Source of the DNA: Deuterostichococcus epilithicus | Taxonomy: Eukaryota; Chlorophyta; Trebouxiophyceae; Prasiolales; Stichococcaceae | Direction of reading: 5' to 3' | Length of the DNA: 64,000 nt | Assembly (NCBI GenBank): GCA_033439295.1 | Contig: JAVTLE010000016.1 | Coordinates: 2,878,027 to 2,942,026 of the forward strand | Shown: one piece after another, positions 28,046 to 64,000 of the stretch | Layout: every line of letters begins with the position of its first letter | How positions within the stretch are numbered: position 1 is the stretch's first letter | Made by a program: the position numbers and the translations under genes | Notes under the pieces: generated by a model | What the model was told of the DNA's origin: nothing | The model's database searches: none | The model's input: only the letters and a program-made list of their open reading frames with translations

Positions 28046-29591
28046 TCAGCCTCTGCCGCTGCGCGACACCACAATCCAAGCCACCGCCGCCGCCGCCACT
28101 GCCACAGACGCGAGGACGACAGGCCGCCGCAGGCCGCTGAAGACCGCGCCGTCCGGCCCAATCAAGCCTGCCGAGGCTGCGGCGGCGTCGCGCCCATCGG
28201 GGCTGCTGACGCCGCTTGCTGGGCTGGCGCTGCTGGCATCAGCCGCTGTCTGGGCCACGACTGAGCCAATGCTGGGGGCTGGCTGCTGGAAGGCGGGAGT
28301 GGCGCCCTTTGCGAGCGGGGAGCTGATGTACGAGGTCATGTACTCCCGCAGCTGCCCTTCGTTCTGGAGCACGCCTGCACACGGACGCACAGGACAGCTT
28401 GCGCACATTCCGTCGCTGAAACATGTGGATTGCAGCGGTTTCACTTCCAGGGTCGGCGCGCAGAGGCCTATGAAACACGTTTCAGCACAACAGGCCACTC
28501 GGGCATCTCACCTGCCCAGCTGTCGGCCTCCAGTTTTGAGGCGTCCGCCATGTAGTTTGCCGGCACCAGCCCCAGGTTGTGAATGTTGTGGAGGTTATTC
28601 TCCTGCACAAAGCTAGGCAAGCGACCATGAAAGACTGACACAGAGCAGTTGTCTGTGCGCCGCTGCAATTTGGCATGGGCTGACAACCCAGCGCCGAAGC
28701 TTCAGTGGCAGGTGGCCACGCAAACATAGCTGCCATCGCAGCCAGAAGAGATGGGCCGTGGGCACAGCAAGCGCAGCATACCTCAAGACCCTGCACAAAC
28801 ATGCGGCCGGAAACCTCCTGGAGCGACAGGTGCAGAACGAAGCGGTTGGCGCAGCCATCTCTGCGGAACAGCAGGACAGGGGCCAGTCGGCTTGCTAGGC
28901 CGCAGCAGGGCTGGACCAAGGCCCCAGCAGCTCGTGGGTCCACACGGCGCGTTTCAGCCGTCTTTTTGCACAAAAAAGGTGATCAGCGAGCTGGAGGAAG
29001 CAGCAGGTCGCCGGGCACCGCCGCGAGGAGTAGACTCGATGCTGCTCAAGCGGCGTGATAGCCATGACGCTGTCAGAAACACACCTGGCGTAGTTGAAGA
29101 CCCACTCATTCTGGAACTTGCCGTTCCAGTCGCTTTGCGGCACGTAGCTGGGCGGCCCCGCAGATGCGTCCGTCCTCCGGAAGCCAGCATCCACCATGAG
29201 GCCTGCGGACAGCGCCCATGGTGCCGGAGGGGTACAATCGGCATGTGACTGCAAGTTGGCTGACGTGCGCTGCGGCCGGTTCCCATCGCCCAGGTTCAAT
29301 CTTGTACGCTGATGGGTGGCGCATGCATGTCAATGCCAAGTCGTCAGCAGCATCCGCCGCATTGCGCGGCACGATTCGACAGCAGGATACGTGGTGCGAG
29401 GAGACGCATGCCGTGAAACCGATACGGGACAGCGTCTCGGCAACAGACGGATGCCGAAGCGAGAACTCACAGTGGGCGGCGAGGGAGACCACGGCTGCCG
29501 CGCTGCCCGGCTTCACATACTGCGGCGCGGGCAGCGCCTTGCCCAGCAGCGACTCGACCGACTCGCCGTCGGCTGGAGCTGTTGCTGCCAT
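28046..29591 (-). CDS. PI31-like proteasome regulator with C-terminal membrane segment
   Basis: Five exons (29591-29471, 29202-29085, 28860-28782, 28602-28512, 28374-28046) join in phase to 245 residues. The N-terminal half follows the PI31 (PSMF1) N-domain pattern known from plants: VVSLAAHCLMVDAGFRR (compare the plant helix AVHASFLASGYVL), then SDWNGKFQNEWVFNYAR, then two strands NRFVLHLSLQEVSG and RMFVQGLE. In plants such proteins bind the 20S proteasome. The C-terminal half is different. After an Ala/Ser/Pro-rich linker comes a basic RRP and about 18 hydrophobic residues (VVLASVAVAAAAVAWIVV), ending with five residues SRSGRG-like, i.e. a tail-anchor arrangement. The usual PI31 proline-rich tail is absent. 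The family call rests on pattern resemblance, not on an alignment search. A tail-anchored protein of another family is the alternative. Confidence 0.55.
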
Positions 29592-30443: not shown

Positions 30444-33400
30444 TCAGCAGCAAAGGCGCCAGGGCACAGTCGCACCTGCGGAGGAAAACGCATCGCGCAG
30501 GCTGCCGCTGCCGGGCCCGGGGTTGCGCAGCGTCGACCGCAGCATGGCTGCTAGGTTCCGCGCGGGCGACTCCGGCACTGACTCGCTGCCGCTGCCGCCG
30601 CTAGGCACCACCTTGCCGGGCAGCAGCTGCCGACCGAGCAGCAACAGGGCTCAGGGTCTGGTGCACCACAGAAGCAAGCTGCTCTGTCCGTGCCACCTCC
30701 AAGACAGGCTTCCGCAGCAGGGCAGTTCAGTTCGACCGGCAGTGTTCGTCACCATCGGCTGCCGACACGTCCTCAGCCACGCCGGTGCCACACCCGCACG
30801 TTGGTGTGTACGGCTGTACAGTCGTACACATTGCAGTCACAACAGCATCGTCGGTCCCAGCAGCAGGGCGCACCTCCATCAACAGGTCCGAGCGGGATGA
30901 GGAGGGGCTCCTCTCCAGGCCGCCGCAGCCGTTGGCGCTGTCCCTGCTCGACACCCGCTTGACGAGTGCGGGGCTGGCGGCGCCGTTGCCCGGCGGCGTG
31001 CCGGGCGGCGTCCCCGGCGGCGTGTTTGGTGCATTTGCGCCTGCCACAGGGCCGGACCACGGAGGGAGCTAAAGCAAGCATACCGATGAGTCGACGGGAT
31101 CCGCAGCCTTTGACATATCAGTTCCGACCTTCAGCAGTGCACCGCTTCAATATGCTGCCTGCCTGCATCTGCCGTATGCTGGATGCATCAGCTGCCCAGC
31201 AACTGTGGCAGACGCCGCGCAATGCAGCACACATTGCCGCTGCACGCACCTGACGCACCAGGGTCACGGGCCGCCGAGCCATCCGCACTCGCCATCGACA
31301 CATAGGAGTCAGGCGCCGCCTGGAAGGCGTCCTCGACTCGCCGCATGGGCGGCGGCTTGTAGTCGCTGCCCGCCGTCGCCGGAGTGTGGCGGCCAGCCCC
31401 GGCGCCGGGCTTGGCGTCTGGCGACATGGCGCCGCCAGCGCTGCGGCCTTCGGCCACGTTGTCAGTGCCGCTGGCGCCGTCCTGCTGCTGCCGCGCGAAG
31501 GTGGGCGTCGAGGGCGGCGAGGGAAACAGGTCCTGCGGCTTGGCGGTGTCGATGTCGGGCGTGCGCCGCACCGCCAGTGGCGACTCCTTGCGGCTGCCGG
31601 GCCGCGCCGTCGGCGTGGGGAACAGCTCACTGGCCGCCGGCACGCCGCTGACAATGGTGGCCAGCTGGCTGCGCGTCACCATGGGCGGCGGCAACCGGTC
31701 CGGGCCGCCGGCAAAGCTGGATGAAGCCGCCGACATGCCTGCGATGAGCGTGCGGGTGCATCTTGCAGGGCGGTCGGATCTGCCCAGCGACAAGCTGCCC
31801 GTCCTGTGGTGCAGCCGCCGAGGCACGTTGCAGCCGCTCGCAGGCTGGACAGAAAAGTGCGGTTGGGCCGTAGTGGGCCACGCGCCAGACAGGCGTGGCT
31901 GCCAGGTGAAGCCTCGACTGCCGGGTGCAGCCGCGGCAGCAGCCACAGCCCAGGACGCCCATGAGTATCGCTGGGTGCGCCAGCATAGGGGCTGCGACGA
32001 TTGAAATTCAGACAGAAGAAAGCGACATTCAGACGGCCAAACTGCGGGACGAGGGGGCGCACCGGCGGCAGAAGGCGAGGACAGGCCGTCATCGCTGTTG
32101 GCACCAGAGTGCTCGCTCTCCTCCAGCCACGTGTGCACATTGCGATTCAGCTCCTCCATTTGCTCCGGCTCCAGTTCTGCAGTAGCGGGTTTGGCGATGC
32201 GGTGGAGGAACTTTTGGCACTCAGCGCAGAGCTTCTCCAGCTGCATGCATGCTCCAGCTCCAGCTGTTGGCTGCTCGCGTCTCAGCCGCCTCCCGCAGGA
32301 ATGATGCAAGTCATCATTGCTTGCGTGATTGCTGATAACACGTGACATCCCTTCAGCCACATGTACGCTGACCCGGATGGCCACATGCTTTGCTCCTCCA
32401 GGTACTAGCTAGTTAGATGTGCTGGATCCAAACAGGTGCCGCTTCGCATGCCAAGTCCAAGGTTGCCAAACCCAAAATCTCGCCTGGAGAGAGTGGCGAG
32501 GTCACAGCAGATTGCGACAGAGGTCCCACTGGCAGAGAACTGCCCTCCAGCCAATGGACTCACCGGGCTCGAAGAGCGTCTCGACGAGGTCCAGAGCCAC
32601 GCCCATCTGCTGCGTGCTGATGACGCCGTTCAGCAGCAGCAGCTCGCTGAACTTAGTGAGGCAGGAACGGTGGCCGTCCAGCCCCTGCTCCTCCGCTATG
32701 GCCATCAGCGAGGAGCGGATCTCCTTCTCCAGCGGGCTGGCCACCGGCCGCAACGCCTTGCTGTCACCAGCGCCGCTGCTGCCGATGAGGCTCTGCGCAT
32801 TGTGCACCTGCGTCTGCAGGGCAGGAGCCCGACGCACGTGTTACGGCAAAACGCCTCGTGGGTGAAGGGTCTAGCTCCAGGGCAGCAGGGTCGGCTCGCA
32901 GACAGTTGGAAATGTTTCCAGCCAGACGGCAACATGATCGGCCGCGCTGTCGGCAGCAGTGCAGCGTCGCCGGTTCGCAGCGCCGCACTGCTGGCGTGCA
33001 TCAAGTGCACGTCAGCATGTAGGTCTGGATGCAGTCAGCACGCCCTGGTCTGTACTACTGCAGGCAGTACATGCAATTGCAGTCTGTAGTACAGACGACG
33101 ATGTTGAGCACAACCAGGCTGCAGAGCTCGGGTTCTTGACTGCTAGACCATCTGAGACATTGACCAGGGTGGGTGCAGTCTGCTTCAGGCACTGCGGGCA
33201 CCGCGGCGCCCGCCAATCCTGGCGCCGCAAGTGCGAAGCCCGCCCCGGGAGGGCGCGTCCGACCGCCGGCCGTAGCACTGGCAGGGCCAGCGCCCGCGCG
33301 TTGTATGCTCAGATCATGCAGTTGAGACGGAGGAGGTGACAGGGCACTCACGATGCTGACGCGCAGTTTGTGATCCTGCACTTTGAACTTCTGCGCCTTG

Positions 33401-34435
33401 AAGGCGCTGGTGTCCGGCTGCTGGCCCGGCAGGATGGGCAGGCTCTGCACCAGGAAGCGGTCCCGGCAGTGCTGCAGGTCCGGCGTGAAGTCGCCCTGAG
33501 CCACCAGCACCAGCTTGACGTGCGCTGTCTCGCCTGGCGCCACTGCGGCAGCAATACAAAGCCAGGCCTCAGAGCTGTGACGATTGAGCTCAGGCATGCG
33601 CCCAGCAGTGTACACGGTCAAGAATGGATGCGGCAGCATCATATCCAGCGCCAAGCCGCGATGAGGCGCGCTCTCGCCGGCTCATGGGTGATATGGGTTG
33701 CTGGGATCGCTGCCACAGCTGAGCCCGCCGACGAAATCAGCGCTGCATCGGTGTATGAAGTCCGCATTTGAGCGTCGTTATAGCGTCCAGGCTCTGCATG
33801 CTGCTCCCTGCCGCGGTCCGCCGTCGCAACGAGGCCTTGCGATCCGCCTCGCCACAGCCGGACGCGACCACCTAGAAGGCCGGCCGCCTTGTGCAACGCG
33901 CGATCATGCCGAAGCCGTGATTGCCACTCACGACTGCGACTGCGGCGGCTTAGGGGGCCTGCTGCGTCACGGCGCCGGACGCTGCTGACGCCTGGCGTAC
34001 GAGACAACGCACAGCCAAATCTGGTCAGCACGGGGGAGGGGTCTCCGCAGAGACAGGGCGGGCTCACCGACGCCGATGTTCGGCCGCACGCGGTACCGCT
34101 CCGTGGCCGTTGTCTTCACTTTGAAGGCTATGTATGACGGCGACGAGTTGCGCAGGCTCGCCGTGAGCAGCGTGTCCACTCCCAGGCGCATGGGAAATTC
34201 CAGCAGCTCCGGGAACACCTGTGCGGGAGCACCCGGCATCAGCTATTGTAAATATCCAGGGTGCAGCCAAGTGTACCGCGACCTTGAACGTGGTAGTGGT
34301 CGCAGGTGTCCTTGCCTGCAGATGGCGCCCCGCCATCGTGGCTTGCAGCTGGTCGAACGCCTCCGCGTTGGCGAGGCGCAGGCTGTCAGCCGGACCCTCG
34401 ATCCCGGCAGCGCCCTCGTCGTGGGCCTGCGGCAT
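30444..34435 (-). CDS. MSP-domain (VAP-like) protein A
   Basis: Eight exons (34435-34316, 34218-34068, 33542-33352, 32813-32564, 32251-32063, 31738-31250, 31040-30874, 30626-30444) join in phase to 579 residues. Residues about 40-150 form an MSP domain: LEFPMRLGVDTLLTASLRN, YIAFKVKTTATERYRVRPN, GVVAPGETAHVKLVLVAQ, CRDRFLVQSLPI. In VAP proteins this fold binds FFAT motifs at the ER. A second conserved module follows: EIRSSLMAIAEEQG then SCLTKFSELLLLNGVIS and QMGVALDLVETLF. The rest is a Ser/Pro/Gly-rich, probably disordered tail with repeated PPGTPPGT. No transmembrane segment is seen, unlike VAPs. The first intron has a GC donor (CAG|gcaagg). It is the divergent paralogue of the gene starting at 35306. 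Confidence 0.75.
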
Positions 34436-35305
34436 CGACGGTGCTTCGCCGCAGATCGGGGCAACGCGCTTTTGACACAGGCAAAGTGCTTCAAGGGGGT
34501 TCAAGGTGAATCTCGTATGGCGACAAAACAAGCACTGGTATGTACTCTTGCCGCCGCGATCGCGCCCGCACGCTGCAAAGGCAGCTTTGTTGGCTGATCG
34601 TTTGCCCCAACCGGCACGGTGGGCTCACACGTCACCTGCCGGCCAGGTTCTGTGGCTTGCGGCCTGAGAGCCAGCCGTGAAGCCAGTCCACGATGTGGCA
34701 GGACGGTTGGCAAGTGGCGGCGGTCTAGGAAGCACGTGTATCTTGTTCCTGGTGCAATAGCGTGCGGCAGGGCTGGTTGATCTGTTCGGCCCTGCACCTC
34801 CAGCTTCTTGGGCCGGATTTGCAGATGGCGTTAGGCTGTCCCTCGAGTAGACGCGCCCGTGCGCCGTTCCCCGGCCGGCAGGCTACCGTGGTGCTGATGC
34901 TGCAGCCCTGAGATCCAGGGCCCGGCCGCTGACCGACAACTGTAGTCAGGCCAGCCCACTCGTGTGGGGTGCCTCACAGCACATACACGCAGGTGCACGA
35001 GCACGCTGCTGGCTTGGTGCGACGGGCCTCGCGCATGCCAGTAGGGCAGCTGCATCAGGGTGGTGCTGCTGGTCTCTTGACTTGAGCAGCTGAAGACGGG
35101 CCCTGGGCGCGGCTCGCGCGCACGCAAAAGGTACTTGCTGTTGTTGCTTTGGCCTCAGCGCGTGACATGCCAGTCCGCACTGTCGCATGGGTTGGCAAGT
35201 GAAACTCCTCTGTCTGGTCCTGCAAAGGCGCGAAACCCGCTGCATCTGCCTTGACACACAGATCGATTTGGCGCTTTCCACGCCGCAGGCGCGCCGCTTG
35301 CAGCC
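34436..35305. promoter_or_regulatory. Shared upstream region of the divergent MSP-domain pair
   Basis: About 870 bases lie between the two start codons (34435 on -, 35306 on +), so both promoters should be here. I see no clear TATA box and no inverted repeat spanning the centre. An upstream non-coding exon for either gene is possible. Confidence 0.4.
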
Positions 35306-38300
35306 ATGTCGGGCCTGCAGATCAACCCCACGCAGCTGCACTTCAAAGCGGTGGTGGGCGCGGACGCGCCCGTCACTCTCACGCTATTTAACCCGCACCC
35401 CGTGGAGCGCATCGCCTTCAAGGTGCACTGCAGCTGTTTTGTTTGCAGAGCGATTTTCATGTGAAGTGGCATGCGGACCGGCATCCTCACTTCATGTTGC
35501 TGTTGATGCATGCCGATGTGCAGTGTCGGCAGTTACCGAAACTGAGTTGAGCAGTCCGCCACAGCGCATGCCCTGCCGCCGCCCGCAGATCAAGACGACG
35601 GCGAGCAGCACCTACCGGGTGTGGCCCAACAGCGGGTCGCTTGAGGCGGGGGAGACGGCGCGCGTGCAGGTCCTGCTGCTGGGCACCAAGGTGGACCTGA
35701 CCGACCCGGTGTGCGTCGATGAGTGCCGCCGCGACCGCTTCCAGGTCAGTTTGCACGTCGGGTGGCGCGCTGATGGTTGCGATGGGCTGCGCGGAATGTG
35801 AATGCCCAGGGATGCACACGGGGTGCCGACAGCTGCTCAACAGCGGAGGTGTAGTGCAACAGCACTGGCGCGCTGCATGTGGAGATGGCGACGGAGGTCC
35901 TGGTCGTGTTCCCGACCCGCCAGCTGCACGTGGCGGCGCTGTACTGCAGCGCTGCACAAGGCGGAGACCGCGGGCACCCACGGTGACTCACCGCAGATAC
36001 GCGCTTGCTGCGCAGGTGCAGTTCATGCCGCTGGCGGAGGGGCAGGCCTTTGACAACAGCCTGTTCAAGCTGTACGCGGGGCTGGTGCGCGACATCAAGA
36101 TGAGCGTCAGCATGGTGAGTTCGAACCCTCGATGTTCAAGGCCTTGCTGTAGCCCCGGACCGCACGCACGCTGGTAGCCCGGTTGCAGCAGCAGGGGACG
36201 GGAGCAGGCAGCATCTGAGCACGTCATTGGTCGCATGTGCGTCTGGTGCTGCCGCCAACCTGCACAGCTGCGCGTGCAATCCGTGAGTCCTGGCCACCAG
36301 GCCACCACCGCTGATATCTGATCTGTTCTACCCCTATCCCGCTGCATGCCCTATGGCAGCCACGCGAGCAGGTTTCGTGCAGGAGCCTGATGCTGTCAGA
36401 AACTGCAATGGAAAACGCAGGTTTGGGGACAGACCGATCACATCTCGATTTTCACACTCGAACAGGACATCGTGGATGCCGCGGAGGCGGCAAACGGGGG
36501 CCACGGCGGCGAGGAGGCGTCCCCCTGGGAGGGCATGGTGCGCATCGCGCTCATGCGCATGATGGCGGACGAGGAGCGGGAGGCGGCCGCCAGCGCGGCG
36601 TGCCTGACCAAGTTCTCGGAGCTGCTGGTGCTCAACGGCATCATCAGCAGCGAGCAGATGTGGGCCGCCTTCAACCTCGTCGGCGACATGTACCAGACCT
36701 CCGGTGCGGGCCCAGCCTTGCCGTGCTTCGCCATGCTGCAGCGGGCTGAGGGGAACTCCCACACGGACCTCGCCTTGCGGTGCTGCTGAGCCGCGGCCAG
36801 AAGGGCCGTCCTTGCACCGCTGGCCATCGCAAGCAGCCGTTCGCTGCGGGGGTGCTGCCCGCTGATGCAGGCGCCTGCAATCTGATGAACGCTTGGTGCC
36901 GATGTCGTTGCGTTTTGCAGGCGAGGGGCAAAAGACCGTGTCCAAGGTGGAGCAGTGGCTGGAGCACCCCGACGTTCTGAACGTGGTCGACCCCGACGCA
37001 GGTGGGCCTTGGCCTGCTTACCTAATCCGCATGTGCCAAGCCCGGCGGGACGCGGTGCGAGTGTGACGGCACCCGTCTCAGACCTGGCCGTCAAACCGGC
37101 CTGTCCGCCTGTACATGCTAGCGGTGCGTCCACCGCAGCGCACTCCACCAGGCGGCCACTTCAGCGGAATGCGTGTACCACCCAGTCCAACATGGCAGAG
37201 AGCTCTGCAAAAGCAGGCTTTCGAGTTGGCAACCTTCCTGCTCGACAAGCTTGTTGTTTTTCATACGTATTCACTCATCATGCAGCCTCGGAGCGGCGCA
37301 AGGGCAGCGACTCCAGCGGCGACAGCTTCTCAGAGCGCTCCGGCGAGCCAGGCGCGCTGCACACACCGCACGAGCGTGAGGAGGCCATGCCGCACAGCCG
37401 CCGCGACGGCGAGGGCGAGGAGTCGTATCCGGCTTCGCCCTTTTCTCAGCACACCGGCGAAGGAGGAAAAGCCGGCGCCGCCGGCGCAATTACGGGCCTC
37501 CCGGAGGAGTACGCCTTCGCGCCGCTGGACGCGGATGGGCCGACAGGCGCGGATGCTGTCGGCTTCCGCGATGCGCAAGAGACAGCGCCGCCGCTCACGG
37601 CGCCGGGCTCGGCGCAGGGCTTCGGCTCGGCGCACTCGGCGGATCCGCGGCGCCCCGACAGCGTGTCAGACGTCGAGGACGTGTCCATTGGCGAGTCCGC
37701 TGACCAGCTGGCCGAGGTAGCGCGCCTGGCCAGCGAGCGGAGCGGCAGCGGCGGCGACGGTGAAGGCAGTGGGGCCTACTCCGACAGCGAGGATTCTCTG
37801 GATGCGGAGATGGCAGCAGCGCGTGCCCTGGCGGCTGGCGGCGGCGGGCCCAACGGCGATGCGGACAGCTTGGTGGAGCAGCAAAGGCAGCCGCCAGAGC
37901 CAATTGCGGGCGGCACCAGGCACGACGTCAATGCCAGCTTTGCAGCGGCGCGGGAGGCGGCGCCGGTGGCGCAACAGCGAGCCGACGCCCGCGATGTGAG
38001 CCTTACTCTGCAGCACTGCTTCCTCTTCCTCTCGCCCCTGCCACGAGATTTTTGCATCGCAGCCTCTCTAGCAAGGTTCACAGCACTATACTCGTTCTGC
38101 TGCACAGCAGGGAATACCAAGTCTTTGGACTTTGCAAACCCTGTGCACAGACGTCAGGTTGCAACTCTGGGTTGCAAGGGGAAGCACGGTCAGCCACAAC
38201 TCGTACGCTGCTGCGGTCGCACCTTGTGACATACCAGTCCCCGCCCACCTGTTGGACAGCTGCAACGCCGATCTTCACATGCTACTGCAGCTGCCCATGT

Positions 38301-40610
38301 CAGGCCAGCGCATCGCCCCTCTGCAGCGGCCCAACCCTGAGCACACCGATTTCTCATGCAATATCGAAGCTGCCGTTTCTGAAAGTCAATGAGGCAGCAA
38401 ACAGAGGTCAAACTGTGCCGCCCTACTCCCGCAGGTCACGCCGGTGCGGGTCACGCTGCAAGAGCGCAAGGCTGCACTGGCGAAGGCGGTGCCAGACCCG
38501 GTGCTGCAGGCAGCAATGGCGGAGGAGCTGGACGAGGCGTTCGCGCCAGACATGCTGGCCGAAGCGCGTGCCCAAATGGCCGCCGCCGGCTCCGCCATGG
38601 CGCAGTCGTCGGTCGTGCCGCCCACCGGTCCGCACATGCTGTCTTTTGCGGACCGCGCCGCCATGTACGGCGCGATCAGCAACGGCTCGGGGCGCGGCGG
38701 CAGCGGGCTGCCCGCCAGCGGCGGCATCAGCGGCAGCCTGTCGGACCTGTCCGGCGGCGCCCAGCCGCGGCAGCCGGGGGCCACGCCGCAGATTCCTGGC
38801 GGCAGCGGCGGCGGCGGCCCCGATGGCCTGTACCGCCGCAGCGACAGCAGCCGGGCGCGCGCGATGCGGCGCGGCGCCTCCGCCATCGCCGCTGCCGGCT
38901 TCGCACGCCCCTCCGGCGACACTGCTGGGTTCAGCCGTCCCAGTGGCGGCGATTCGGGCGGCTTTGCCCGCGAGTCCGGCCGCGAGTATGGCAGCATCCT
39001 TGCCCGCGACTCCGGCCGCGAGGCGGGATTCGTGCGCGACTCTGCACGGCAGTCTAGCTTCACCCGCGAGTCTGCGTATGCGCGGGAGGCTACTTGGGAA
39101 GCGGGCTATGCCCGTGAGTCTGGGCACGCGTCCGCATTTGCCCACGGCTCGGCGCAGGAGGCCGCCTACGCCCGGGAATCTGGCGGCTATGCGCGGCAGA
39201 GCGGCACCGATTCCAGCTTCGCTCTGCGCAGTAATGGCGACATGCGGCACAGCGCGCGGCCCAGCTTCGACTCGCGGCCCTCACCGAGGCCGCCGACCGC
39301 CGGCCAGTCGCCGCGCATTGCAGAGGGGGCGATGCCCCCGGACAGTGGCCGCGGCAGCTCCCCGCGCGTGTCAAGGCACTCCAGCGCCGAGCTGCGACGG
39401 CGGCCCAGCGCGGACGAGCTGACGCCGGCGTCACGGATGGGAGGCGGTGCCAATGGCGACCTGCGCCTCACGCCGCCGCTGGCAACGGGCCGCCAACCGC
39501 TGCCCACCGGCGGCGCACACGGCAACAGTTCCACAGGGGTCGCCGGCTCCGGCCCAGCGTCGGAGGCTGGCCGCAATGGTGAGGAGGAAGAGGAGCTGGG
39601 CCCGGCGGTGCGGGTGCTGCTGCCGGGCAAGCAGTCGCTCACGCGCGGCGAGCTGGCGGCCGCCACCACCGCCGTCCTGCGGGTGTGTGCCGTGTCGGGG
39701 GCGTGGCTCAGCCTTTGCACTGCTTGTCAGACAGCATGGTGGATCTCTCGTGCGCTGCGAGCCACCTGTGCGAGGCTGCACCCGTGTGGCCTTTCATGGG
39801 CCCGAATCCACTTGCACCCGCACGTTGTCTCGTCAAACATTTCACACAGCTTTTGTGAGAGCCTGCTCCCCCACATTGTCTGCAGGTCAGCACGGACGGC
39901 GGCCGCCCGCAGCGGAGCGCCTCCGCCACGCGGCAATCCCTGGCTCCTGCGGGGACACGCAGATCGGCCTCCTTTAGCGCAGGCGCTGGCCAGGTTCCCC
40001 CCCCAGGGCTGACCGACAGCCACTCTAGGGAGGTGTATCTGCGCCCATGGCTGCAGGATCTCTGCATGGTGGCGCAGTTCATCTGCGCACGGTCAGGAGC
40101 CAGCAGATCGAGCCCTGCATCCCAAGGGCTGTAGCATCCCTCTGTGTCCACAAGCCCGCCCTGATGCCATGTCGACTTACAAATGTGCACAGGTGGCGCC
40201 GGACAGCGAGGCGCCGTCCACCCCGGGCGATGCGCCCGCCTCGCCGGCACGCACGCCCGCGCAGCAGCAGCAGCAGCGCGCCGAGCCGTTCTCGGCCACC
40301 ACTGGCGGCGCCGCGCCCGCGGTGGCGGCCGCCGCGCCGCCGTCGCGCAAGAAGGGCGGCCTGTTCAGAAAGCTGGGCGACGCACTCTCCTCGCGGGCGG
40401 AGGCGGCCGCCCGCAATGCGGCTGGCGGTTCGGGTGCAGGATCTTGGCTATCTCTGATCACCCATTCTTTCATACCTGCCCAAGGCATCGTGAGGTTTTT
40501 GTTCCATGTTGCTGATTGCACCTCGCAAGCGTGTTGCCACCTATTTGCTCTGCTGCCTTTTGCATCCTCATCGACTGCTGTTCTGCTTGGCAGGCTACTA
40601 CTATGTTTGA
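35306..40610 (+). CDS. MSP-domain (VAP-like) protein B with long repetitive disordered tail
   Basis: Exons 35306-35422, 35589-35744, 36016-36114, 36466-36703, 36921-37001, 37286-37995, 38435-39682, 39886-40032, 40193-40433 and 40594-40610 keep phase and give about 1017 residues. The MSP domain is MSGLQINPTQLHFKAVVGA, LFNPHPVERIAFKIKTTAS, TYRVWPNSGSLEAGETARV, CRRDRFQVQFMPL. Next comes the module shared with protein A: MVRIALMRMMADEE, ACLTKFSELLVLNGIIS, QMWAAFNLVGDMY. Then TVSKVEQWLEHPDVLNVVDP and an acidic Ser-rich stretch. The exon at 38435-39682 contains a degenerate repeat around 38930-39200 built on FARESGRE / YARESG. The C-terminus holds RKKGGLFRKLGDALSSRAEA. The end is uncertain: a short last exon to 40610 or read-through to 40864. 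The start was chosen for the direct match to the MSP N-terminus. Confidence 0.72.
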
Positions 40611-55901: not shown

Positions 55902-58900
55902 ATGACGGACTCGGTACAGTACGGTACACGCTTTGAGCAGCTGGGTACCGAAAACTACCTCCAATGGAGCCTGCGCGCAAAGGGGCAACTGCGGCTCAAG
56001 GGCCTCTGGTCAGCCGTGGCCAAGCCAGACGAAGCCGGCGACGAGGCCTCGGAGAAGGTACTCGCGTACCTCTACATGTGGGTACAAGACCAACACTTGC
56101 CCACCATCATGGACTGCAAGACAGCCGCCGAGGCGTGGAAGACGCTCGAGGATACCTATCAGGCGAGCAATAGGGCGCGTCGCGTCATGCTCAAGAAGGA
56201 GATGGCCGCCCTGCAAATGTTGCACGACGAGGACGTGGCGTCCTACGTGGCACGGGCGCGCACCCTCCGCACCCAGCTACTGGGTGCAGGCGACGCACTC
56301 AATGATGAGAACCTGCTCATCAACATCCTCACTGGTCTGCCGTCCGACTACGGCCACATCGTCGTCAATCTGACAACCACCGCGAGTGATGTCAGCCTGC
56401 ATGACGCAATCCCGATGCTGCTGAACGTCGAGCAGCAGCACCGGCTCAAAGGCGGTCCCCTTCTCCAGGACAGCCAGGCGTTCGGCGCGTTTCGCACCAA
56501 ACACGGCCGACCAACAGCCGCCAACAAGACGCCCCAGAAGCCGCCCACACGTGAGACACGTGAGTGCTACAACTGCCACAAGAAGGGCCACCTCAGCCGC
56601 GACTGCCGCAGCCGCCGGCGTGACGGGCGCATCAAACCCGGATCAGGCACTGATACAGTGGCCTTCGCAGCCGTCGCGACGCCCACAGCCAACCATGTGG
56701 CACTGTCGGCTTCACCGACCGTCAGCCGCGATGAGTGGCTACTTGACTCTGGCGCGTCCGACCACGTCACCAACGCCTATGGGTGCCTGCACAACCCCCG
56801 GCCGCCGACGCAGCCGATGAGCGTCACCTTCGGCAAGGGCAGCGCTCCCGTCACCGCCATCGGCGACGTGTACCTACCGCCCAGCTGGCGGCGCTTCAAG
56901 GGAATCACCCTCAAGAACGTTCTCTACGTCGAGGGCGTATCGGCCAATCTCCTGTCAGTCAAGCGTGCAACCGCCGCCGGCGTCAACGTGCGCTTCACCC
57001 CACAAGGTGCTGACCTCGAGCTTGGCAGCAACCAAATCGCTTGCGCGGACTGCACGGGCAGCGGTGTGTACAGCCTGGGCCACATCGAGGACTCAGCCGA
57101 TCTTCATCACCAGCCGTTCAAGGCGGCGCACAAGGCGCCCAGAGTGAAGAGCAAGAGCAAAGCTCCCACCGCCCAAGCCGCCATCGTGGAAACGCCGGAG
57201 GTGTGGCACCGCCGATACGGCCACCTCGGCTACACCAACCTCCAGCGCCTGTCAGCCAAGGCCATGGTGACCGGCATGAAGACCACCGCCGCGGAGTTCG
57301 CGGGCGCGGCAGCCCTGACATGCGAGCCGTGCATCAAGGCGAAGCAGCAGCGCGTCCCACATCCGCCATCGCCAAGCGTGAGTCGCGAGCCGCTGCAACT
57401 TCTGCACATGGATCTGCAAGGTCCAATGCAAGAGCCCTCTCTGGGCGGGGCGGTCTACGTGGCCACCTATCTGGACGATTACTCAAGGCTGTCCGTCGTC
57501 AAGTCCATCAAGACGAAGGGCGAAATAGCGGCCATCACCATCGCCGTCATCAACGAGCTGGAGACGCAAGTCGGTCGGCGCTTGCGTGCGATACGCACCG
57601 ACAACGGGACCGAGTACGTCAATAAGGACCTCGCCTCCTACCTCCAAGGCAAGGGCATCATTCACCAAACCACGATGACCTACACACCGGAGCAGAACGG
57701 CGCGGCCGAACGGCTGAACCGTACCCTCATGGACCGGGTACGCGCGATGCTTATGGACACTGGCATGCCCGCCAGTACATGGGCCGAAGGCGTCGCAACC
57801 GCCAACTACATCCGCAACCGCTCCCCCACGGCCAACGGGCAGCAGACTCCGTGGGAGCTGTTCTACGGCGAGAAGCCCGACGTGAGCCGCATGCGGGTGT
57901 TCGGCGCCACCGCATACGTCCTGATACCTTCGCCACTGAGGCGTAAACTGGACAGCCACACCAACCGTGGACGCTTCGTTGGTTATCAGCCCAACACCAT
58001 TGGCTACCGGATCCTCCTTGATACAGGCAAGATCGTCATCTCCGAAAATGTCATCTTCGACGAGGGAGGTGGGAAACAAGGGGCAGCGCAGCCTCCCACT
58101 GAGTCGGCAATCGCGTGGGAGCCCACCGACATGGATTCCACCGACGGCGGCACGGAACCCCCTGCCGACATGGACGTCCCTGCCGTCAACAATGCCGACG
58201 CAAGCGACACCACCAATGATGGTGAGAATCCCACTGACGACGCCAACAACGCGCCCACACGCCGCACAAGGCGCACGTGGCAGCCCACTCGGCGTGCACT
58301 GGACGCCCAAGGCTACACCGCCACCGCGGAACTCGGCGAGCCTCTCACCTATGAAGAAGCCGTCGCCTCCCCACAAGCCAACGCTTGGCTCACAGCGATG
58401 CAAGAGGAGCTGGCCGCCCTCTCCGCACACAACACATGGGAGCTGACGAAGCTACCAGCCGGCGCAAGGCCCATTCCAGTCAAGTGGGTCTACAAGATCA
58501 AGCTTAACGCCGACAGCTCCATTGAGCGCTACAAGGCGCGCCTCGTAGCCAAGGGCTTCCGCCAGCGCGAGGGCATCGACTTCGACGAAGTGTTTGCCCC
58601 GGTGAGCAAATACACAACCCTCCGCTGCCTGCTGGCACTGGTCGCCAAAGAGGACCTGGAGCTACATCAGCTCGACATCAAGACGGCTTTCCTCAACGGC
58701 AAGATTGAAGAAGAAGTGTACATTGACCAACCCCCGGGGTACGGCAATGGCGACGCTGATACGGTCTGCCGGCTCAACAAGGCGTTGTACGGACTGCGTC
58801 AAGCCCCGCGAGCCTGGCACCTCTGCCTCCAAGAGTCGCTGGTAGCGGCTGGATTCGTGGCATCTGCCTCGGACCCGAGTCTCTACACCTCCACCGACAA

Positions 58901-59891
58901 AAGGGGCGACAAGACGTACATACTCGTGTATGTGGACGACATGCTGGTGGCGGCACCCACCACGGACTGCATCATGCGGGCCAAATCTGCCATCACCAAC
59001 TGCTTCGAGGCACACGACCTCGGCGAGGCAAAGATCTTCCTCAACATGAGGATTGAGCGCGACCGAAGCGCCCACACCATCAAGCTAAGCCAGGAAAGGC
59101 TGGCTAACACCCTGGTGCAGCACTACGGGCTGGTCAACGGCAAGACGCGCGGCGTCCCCTTGACTCCCGGCACGCTGCTGACCGCCGACGACGGCGAGCC
59201 CCTCTCCATCGACACGGCGGGGCACTACACGCACTTGGTGGGCACTCTCCTGTACCTCAGTACGTGCACACGGCCAGACCTGGCGCACGCTGCTGGCGTG
59301 CTGTCCAAGTACATGGCGAAGCCTACCGCAGCGCACTGGAGCGCAGCCAAGGGCATACTCCGCTACGTCGCAAACACCAAGACCAAGGGCATCGTCTTCA
59401 ATGACTACAAGGCAAGCGAACGCCCACCTGCCATAATCGGCTACACTGACGCTGACTACGCTGGAGATCTGGACAGCCGACGCTCAACGTCTGGCTTCGT
59501 GTTCATGCTCTATGGCGGGGCAATCAGCTGGCTCAGCAAGCGGCAAAGCACCGTTGCTACATCCACGGCCGAGGCCGAGTACATGGCGGCCGGCATGAGC
59601 GTCAAGGAGGCGATCAACCTGAGGCAGCTGCTAGCCGACCTCGGCTTGGGCAACCAGACGATCACCATCTTCGCTGACAACCAGAGTGCAATCAAGATGC
59701 TCAAGAACCCCATGGCCTCGTCACGCACCAAGCACATCGACGTCGTCTATCACTTCGCACGCGAGCGGGTGGCGCGCCAAGACGTCAAGTTTCAGTATGT
59801 GAAGACCGAGAAGATGCTCGCCGACATGCTGACGAAGCCCGTCCCAAAAGGCAAGCTCGAGCTGTGCTGCGATGGGATCGGAATGGGCTGA
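55902..59891 (+). CDS. Copia gag-pol polyprotein, 1329 aa, intact
   Basis: One frame with no stop encodes all retrotransposition proteins. In order: a Gag region beginning with an N-terminal ENYLQWSLRAK segment; a CCHC zinc knuckle CYNCHKKGHLSRDC (about residue 221); aspartic protease WLLDSGASDHVT (about 278); GAG-pre-integrase WHRRYGHLGY (about 435); integrase with the D-D-E residues in LLHMDLQGP, IRTDNGTEYV and TPEQNGAAERLN (about 500-600); reverse transcriptase from KWVYKIKLN (about 865) with the catalytic YVDDMLVA (about 1008); and RNase H with GYTDADYAGD and STAEAEYMA (about 1180-1225). The length is normal for the family. No frameshift separates gag from pol, as in many plant copia elements, so Gag excess must come from processing or RNA splicing. 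Confidence 0.98.
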   Translation: MTDSVQYGTRFEQLGTENYLQWSLRAKGQLRLKGLWSAVAKPDEAGDEASEKVLAYLYMWVQDQHLPTIMDCKTAAEAWKTLEDTYQASNRARRVMLKKEMAALQMLHDEDVASYVARARTLRTQLLGAGDALNDENLLINILTGLPSDYGHIVVNLTTTASDVSLHDAIPMLLNVEQQHRLKGGPLLQDSQAFGAFRTKHGRPTAANKTPQKPPTRETRECYNCHKKGHLSRDCRSRRRDGRIKPGSGTDTVAFAAVATPTANHVALSASPTVSRDEWLLDSGASDHVTNAYGCLHNPRPPTQPMSVTFGKGSAPVTAIGDVYLPPSWRRFKGITLKNVLYVEGVSANLLSVKRATAAGVNVRFTPQGADLELGSNQIACADCTGSGVYSLGHIEDSADLHHQPFKAAHKAPRVKSKSKAPTAQAAIVETPEVWHRRYGHLGYTNLQRLSAKAMVTGMKTTAAEFAGAAALTCEPCIKAKQQRVPHPPSPSVSREPLQLLHMDLQGPMQEPSLGGAVYVATYLDDYSRLSVVKSIKTKGEIAAITIAVINELETQVGRRLRAIRTDNGTEYVNKDLASYLQGKGIIHQTTMTYTPEQNGAAERLNRTLMDRVRAMLMDTGMPASTWAEGVATANYIRNRSPTANGQQTPWELFYGEKPDVSRMRVFGATAYVLIPSPLRRKLDSHTNRGRFVGYQPNTIGYRILLDTGKIVISENVIFDEGGGKQGAAQPPTESAIAWEPTDMDSTDGGTEPPADMDVPAVNNADASDTTNDGENPTDDANNAPTRRTRRTWQPTRRALDAQGYTATAELGEPLTYEEAVASPQANAWLTAMQEELAALSAHNTWELTKLPAGARPIPVKWVYKIKLNADSSIERYKARLVAKGFRQREGIDFDEVFAPVSKYTTLRCLLALVAKEDLELHQLDIKTAFLNGKIEEEVYIDQPPGYGNGDADTVCRLNKALYGLRQAPRAWHLCLQESLVAAGFVASASDPSLYTSTDKRGDKTYILVYVDDMLVAAPTTDCIMRAKSAITNCFEAHDLGEAKIFLNMRIERDRSAHTIKLSQERLANTLVQHYGLVNGKTRGVPLTPGTLLTADDGEPLSIDTAGHYTHLVGTLLYLSTCTRPDLAHAAGVLSKYMAKPTAAHWSAAKGILRYVANTKTKGIVFNDYKASERPPAIIGYTDADYAGDLDSRRSTSGFVFMLYGGAISWLSKRQSTVATSTAEAEYMAAGMSVKEAINLRQLLADLGLGNQTITIFADNQSAIKMLKNPMASSRTKHIDVVYHFARERVARQDVKFQYVKTEKMLADMLTKPVPKGKLELCCDGIGMG

Positions 59892-63959: not shown

Positions 63960-64000
63960 TGTAGAGGGGGGNAGGGGAGGGGAAGGGAGGANGNGGGGCT
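63960..64000. other. Low-quality G-rich end
   Basis: A run of short G blocks separated by single A (GGGGAGGGGAAGGGAGG), with several N bases. It looks like the ragged end of an assembled contig and could form a G-quadruplex. Confidence 0.7.

Follow-up and report, generated by a model that had tools for sequence, protein, structure and literature searches.

Adjacent divergent MSP-domain paralogues modelled without a membrane anchor

We analysed a 64,000-nucleotide stretch of DNA (the window; contig C14, 2878027–2942026, from a 46.8-Mb assembly made up of 21 contigs) that carries two neighbouring, divergently oriented genes, A and B. Both encode a VAP-type MSP domain at the N terminus, followed by a second module common to the two proteins and by a long low-complexity tail, and neither gene model contains a transmembrane segment. 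We consider it probable that A and B are old, adjacent, divergent paralogues derived from a VAP and acting as soluble MSP adaptors. Their build is best read as a VAPYRIN-like plan in which a helical module of no recognised family replaces the ankyrin repeats, a variation on a known theme. An earlier note on this DNA had described two genes diverging from an 870-bp centre, which is correct for the outer ATG codons (the gap is 969 bp from the inner ATG of A), and had assigned them the same ordered parts. The matching strings that it quoted, CLTKFSELLLLNGVIS / CLTKFSELLVLNGIIS and QMGVALDLVETLF / QMWAAFNLVGDMY, are present, and the MSP domain and the module are common to both proteins; the tail is not, as its alignment scores below indicate.

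MSP domains, shared module and duplication history

Both proteins score above the curated cut-off of the Pfam family Motile_Sperm (PF00635; 25.9 bits, with A scored as an earlier version of 533 residues) and are thus MSP-domain proteins (Table 1). When solved structures were searched with phmmer (E ≤ 1), all 17 matches to A were VAP, SCS2, MOSPD2 or other MSP-type proteins; the 19 matches to B included four that are not (three entries for a proteasome-activating nucleotidase and one rice protein). Aligning the two translated models, a check proposed in the earlier note, bore out their kinship: 52 of 119 aligned MSP residues are identical, at a score above that of every one of 500 shuffles, and the modules are 46–47% identical. 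The MSP domain of B shares 42 of 118 residues with the VAP of this genome. Exon-by-exon searches of the assembly, each with four candidates and therefore giving a lower bound, found at least three MSP-domain loci, namely A, B and, on contig C12, one canonical VAP. This VAP (around position 3533004) combines an MSP domain with a charged helical stretch and has a membrane helix at its C terminus; it is the one canonical VAP found in the assembly.

In an alignment with SCS2 and VAP, the K-T-T stretch is retained in A and B. The residue before the Phe is Arg in both proteins and Lys in SCS2, and the next contact column holds Leu in SCS2, VAP and A and Gln in B. According to excerpts of one study (PMC7396842), FFAT binding depends critically on K94/M96 in VAPA and on K87/M89 in VAPB; by our alignment, these pairs would map to the Arg and the Leu-or-Gln columns of A and B. 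Because the contact residues examined are retained in A and a hydrophobic contact position is occupied by Gln in B, A is a good candidate for reading FFAT motifs, whereas B is a doubtful candidate, and the two proteins have probably divided ligands between them.

The second module is encoded by exon 4 of each gene. Its A/B alignment scored 135, compared with a mean of 26.9 and a maximum of 62 among 500 shuffles, and searches of the assembly with the module, in each of which two candidates were scored, gave matches only at the A and B places. Within the module, a CLTKFSELL-LNG-IS stretch is nearly invariant between the two proteins and the flanks have diverged. AlphaFold2, run on single module exons with a two-row alignment, predicted helices with low confidence at residues 27–43, 45–61 and 67–81 of the A module (mean predicted local distance difference test score, pLDDT, 64.1) and at residues 2–10, 20–34, 39–56 and 62–77 of the B module (mean pLDDT 66.8). 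The last two helices contain the conserved stretch, and the ten-residue blocks covering these helices mostly have pLDDT values of 68–88, with lower values in the remainder. In both proteins the helical module, predicted at this low confidence, lies where VAP has a coiled coil between its MSP domain and its anchor.

By sequence, the A module matched one unrelated solved structure, a prenyltransferase (E 0.65), and the B module matched only unrelated ones, namely a designed tetratricopeptide-repeat protein, a sugar-binding protein and a rice protein; the E-value of 0.0007 for the designed protein arises from four weak repeated matches, no single stretch of which passes by itself. A suspected resemblance to MA3 or other helical repeats was dropped after searches of Pfam (E ≤ 10) and of solved structures gave it no backing. 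Pattern searches of viral contigs and of bacterial and archaeal genomes gave 47 and 49 matches, among which no relative of the module was confirmed, a result of little weight for collections that are not algal.

That A and B are paralogues from a local duplication is well supported, because the module is matched at only two places in the assembly and these adjoin each other. The duplication is old, to judge from sequence divergence: MSP identity is 52 of 119, the introns within the MSP domain differ between the genes, and only the module exon clearly matches as DNA (82 nt, 77%, E 4e-12; next best match E 0.02). Two intron positions have been kept. Where the MSP domain ends, a phase-0 intron is placed alike in A (after KLRVSI), in B (after KMSVSM) and, by eye, in the VAP of this genome (after KLRVLL); A and B also have in common a phase-1 intron immediately behind the module exon. 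Of the inverted duplication proposed in the earlier note, paralogy and local origin are upheld. Inversion as such is not: the module exon is the only clear DNA match, and between 34000 and 35650 we found 12 inverted pairs, all short (the longest 20 nt at 75%). The layout makes inversion a natural guess.

The layout alone does not make a shared promoter likely, because divergent pairs with similar gaps are common here. Among 54 genes predicted over 264 kb there are 22 divergent neighbour pairs, A/B included, although these predictions are crude and fuse some genes, so that the counts are rough. Gaps in these pairs run from 48 to 1731 bp with a median of 643 bp, and A/B ranks 16th of the 22 by size. 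Published abstracts define a bidirectional promoter by transcription starts less than 1 kb apart; the A/B gap is measured from ATG to ATG. Literature searches on MSP and VAP proteins in algae and on head-to-head pairs in Chlorella turned up no title on such a pair among those listed.

Membrane anchor, tails and gene models

As a measure of membrane anchoring, we took the best 19-residue Kyte-Doolittle mean in each gene model. No transmembrane segment was found in the models of A (1.24) or B (1.34), whose maxima both lie inside the module, whereas the same measure detected one in the VAP of this genome (2.46) and in the neighbouring gene C (2.52). The lack of a VAP-type membrane anchor, claimed earlier, thus holds for the models.

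Gene C bears on a different reading, which we regard as highly improbable, in which A is not soluble but continues into downstream exons and ends in a tail anchor at 28046; A would then be an elongated VAP anchored in the endoplasmic reticulum (ER), and only B would have lost its anchor. The first run of the gene finder did fuse A to these exons, which lie on the same strand and encode the strong hydrophobic segment of gene C. Predicted on its own stretch, however, the downstream piece is a complete five-exon gene that starts from an ATG of its own at 29591 and whose PI31 N-terminal domain exceeds the Pfam cut-off (E 4.1e-5, 23.7 bits versus 21). The acceptor used to fuse the two has a score of 0.5; among other in-frame acceptors ahead of the ATG at 29591 the best reaches 2.4, lower than nearly all acceptors in our models. 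Because the joining acceptor is poor and C is complete by itself with a PI31 domain, we kept A and C apart, and the anchor some 2 kb beyond A was rejected as belonging to this separate PI31-like gene. Sequence searches found no solved relatives of gene C. A tail-anchored PI31-like protein looks unusual, and a literature search turned up no title on such a protein among those listed.

The tails of A and B align at chance level, with the observed score reached by 148 of 500 shuffles for the whole tails and by 193 of 500 for their last 60 residues, and we rejected homology between them. In the models used for these tests, the tail of B has 772 residues and that of A 276, a ratio of 2.8 that corrects the earlier estimate of nearly twice. 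Exon 7 of gene B (38435–39682, + strand) contains a 115-residue stretch with a period of about 10 residues, GFARESGREA-like, with nine matches to a loose pattern; its self-match at lag 10 is 0.305, a value reached in none of 1000 shuffles.

Gene models, which for A and B derive from sequence alone, were put together manually and by means of a small gene finder, for which the window plus 200 kb of the same assembly served as training data. Six of the seven introns of gene A are GT-AG and intron 1 is GC-AG, a type that makes up 24 of 574 introns in the crude predictions over 264 kb. For exon 6 of gene A and exons 6, 7 and 9 of gene B, the modelled frame has the highest coding score of the six frames. 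Alternative borders for exon 5 of gene A (32263–32105) have lower splice scores (0.7 and 3.6). The peptide LQIRPKKLEVQ, near 34830 on the − strand, resembles a first MSP strand and was left out; a stop lies in frame immediately upstream, and no fitting ATG or acceptor was seen by reading.

Table 1. Coordinates of genes A, B and C and their parts within the window
Feature	Coordinates	Strand	Basis and details
Gene A, 8 exons, 554 aa (521 aa from inner ATG at 34336)	30444–34435	−	Model with splice scores
Gene A exons	34435–34316, 34218–34068, 33542–33352, 32813–32564, 32176–32063, 31738–31250, 31040–30874, 30626–30444	−	
MSP domain of A, exons 1–3	33352–34336	−	Pfam 71.4 bits, E 7.1e-20
Helical module of A, exon 4	32564–32813	−	Identity to B in assembly searches, E 4.7e-9 and 3.0e-9; helix prediction of low confidence
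Ser/Pro/Ala/Gly-rich tail of A, exons 6–8	30444–31738	−	Composition; exon 6 clearly coding
Centre between outer ATG codons, 870 bp	34436–35305	.	Gene models
Gene B, 10 exons, 1002 aa	35306–40610	+	GT-AG in 9/9 introns
Gene B exons	35306–35422, 35589–35744, 36016–36114, 36466–36703, 36921–37001, 37286–37995, 38435–39682, 39886–39993, 40193–40427, 40594–40610	+	
MSP domain of B, exons 1–3	35306–36114	+	Pfam 47.8 bits, E 1.5e-12
Helical module of B, exon 4	36466–36703	+	Match to A; helix prediction of low confidence
Ala/Gly/Ser-rich tail of B, exons 6–10	37286–40610	+	Composition; 10-residue repeat in exon 7
Gene C, 5 exons, 245 aa, PI31 N-terminal domain and C-terminal membrane helix	28046–29591	−	Prediction on own stretch; Pfam

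G+C content is 56–69% across the 2-kb blocks of the window, genes in the window have many introns, and neighbouring genes include a DUF6816 gene, a GH63 glucosidase gene and a PHD-finger gene. The green-algal origin assumed in the earlier note is plausible. Long open frames at 55941–59863 (+ strand) resemble, by eye, the polyprotein of a Copia-type retrotransposon. Position 64000 of the window is the right end of contig C14 (2942026 bases).

Possible roles and opposing evidence

In the account that we favour, the ancestor of A and B would have been a VAP-type gene whose N-terminal MSP domain was retained and whose charged helical stretch and anchor gave way to a helical module of about 60–80 residues and a long tail. 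The MSP domain would grip partner proteins by their FFAT-type peptides, or would grip acidic lipids. The module would hold a second partner or let A and B form like or mixed pairs, and the tail would supply reach as well as regulatory sites. Because the module sits where VAP has its charged helical stretch, it is natural to guess at self-association or a second partner. A bolder version, to which we attach little probability, makes the module an unrecognised adaptor fold joined to the MSP domain in this alga-like lineage; A and B would be co-expressed as a hetero-oligomer in which A reads FFAT and B, through its changed pocket, reads a different peptide. Together they would be a soluble link from one set of partners to another and an independent counterpart of VAPYRIN.

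The retention of ligand-contact residues in A and the finding of one canonical, anchored VAP in the assembly would also suit soluble competitors of that VAP, which would draw FFAT ligands off the ER and join no partners. We think this improbable, as a pure competitor would not need a conserved module or long tails and B has lost one of the contact residues.

Several observations weigh against A and B as VAP-derived soluble adaptors. The MSP domain of A is about as near to VAP (50 of 119 residues) as to B (52 of 119), so the tie between A and B rests on the module more than on the MSP domain. The MSP domain of B has diverged (Trp replaces Arg in its RPN stretch, and its contact position holds Gln) and may lack any FFAT binding. 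Neither module frame matched a Pfam family at E ≤ 10, and a Foldseek search with the low-confidence model of the A module gave 88 matches at E ≤ 10, the best 50 of which included none at E ≤ 0.001; because no family or fold matched at these levels, any role for the module is a guess. The tails are probably disordered, as judged from composition only. An anchor in a missed exon of A or B is unlikely but keeps some small probability, because exons 7 and 8 of A are weak (coding scores of 9.9 versus 10.6 and, stop included, 3.6 versus 4.0 for open frames on the opposite strand), a good donor-like site inside the last exon of A might lead into an unrecognised exon, and the weak last exon of B is 17 bp long.

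Some of these features would also be expected if one or both genes were decaying, with an MSP domain in B that no longer binds ligands and tails that are drifting low-complexity sequence of little function. The divergence of the B domain, its Gln at the contact position and the want of alignable common sequence in the tails fit such decay. Nevertheless, open frames and canonical splice sites are maintained over 8 and 10 exons, codon bias is strong in most exons, and the CLTKFSELL-LNG-IS stretch is nearly constant despite its diverged flanks, and we consider decay unlikely.

Comparison with known systems

Like VAP, VAP27 and SCS2, A and B have a VAP-type N-terminal MSP domain. The phase-0 intron where that domain ends is found in A, in B and in this genome's VAP, and A retains the contact residues examined in VAP and SCS2, from which B departs by its Gln. 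The predicted helical module and the long low-complexity tail set both proteins apart from VAP. VAP27 proteins have one C-terminal transmembrane domain as an anchor, according to excerpts of PMC11255254. The models of A and B are without such an anchor and, in that sense, the proteins are not members of VAP27.

The MSP domain of MOSPD2 resembles that of A (E 1.6e-6 to 6tqs). MOSPD2 carries a CRAL-TRIO domain ahead of its MSP domain, plus a membrane anchor, whereas neither the domain (by Pfam) nor the anchor (by hydropathy) was seen in the models of A or B.

VAPYRIN is a well-known soluble MSP-domain adaptor, which land plants need for intracellular symbiosis. Excerpts of one study describe it as an MSP domain plus 11 ankyrin repeats, with no transmembrane domain predicted (PMC6558636). 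The models of A and B agree with it in having an N-terminal MSP domain, a second domain and no transmembrane segment. They differ in that second domain, an unrecognised and probably helical module in place of the 11 ankyrin repeats; no ankyrin family matched either model in Pfam (E ≤ 10). With one canonical VAP and two soluble relatives, the set would be small and tractable for following how MSP domains diverge in ligand choice after duplication. Provided that expression of A and B agrees with the models, they would represent another route to the VAPYRIN design, with a different second domain, in an alga-like genome.

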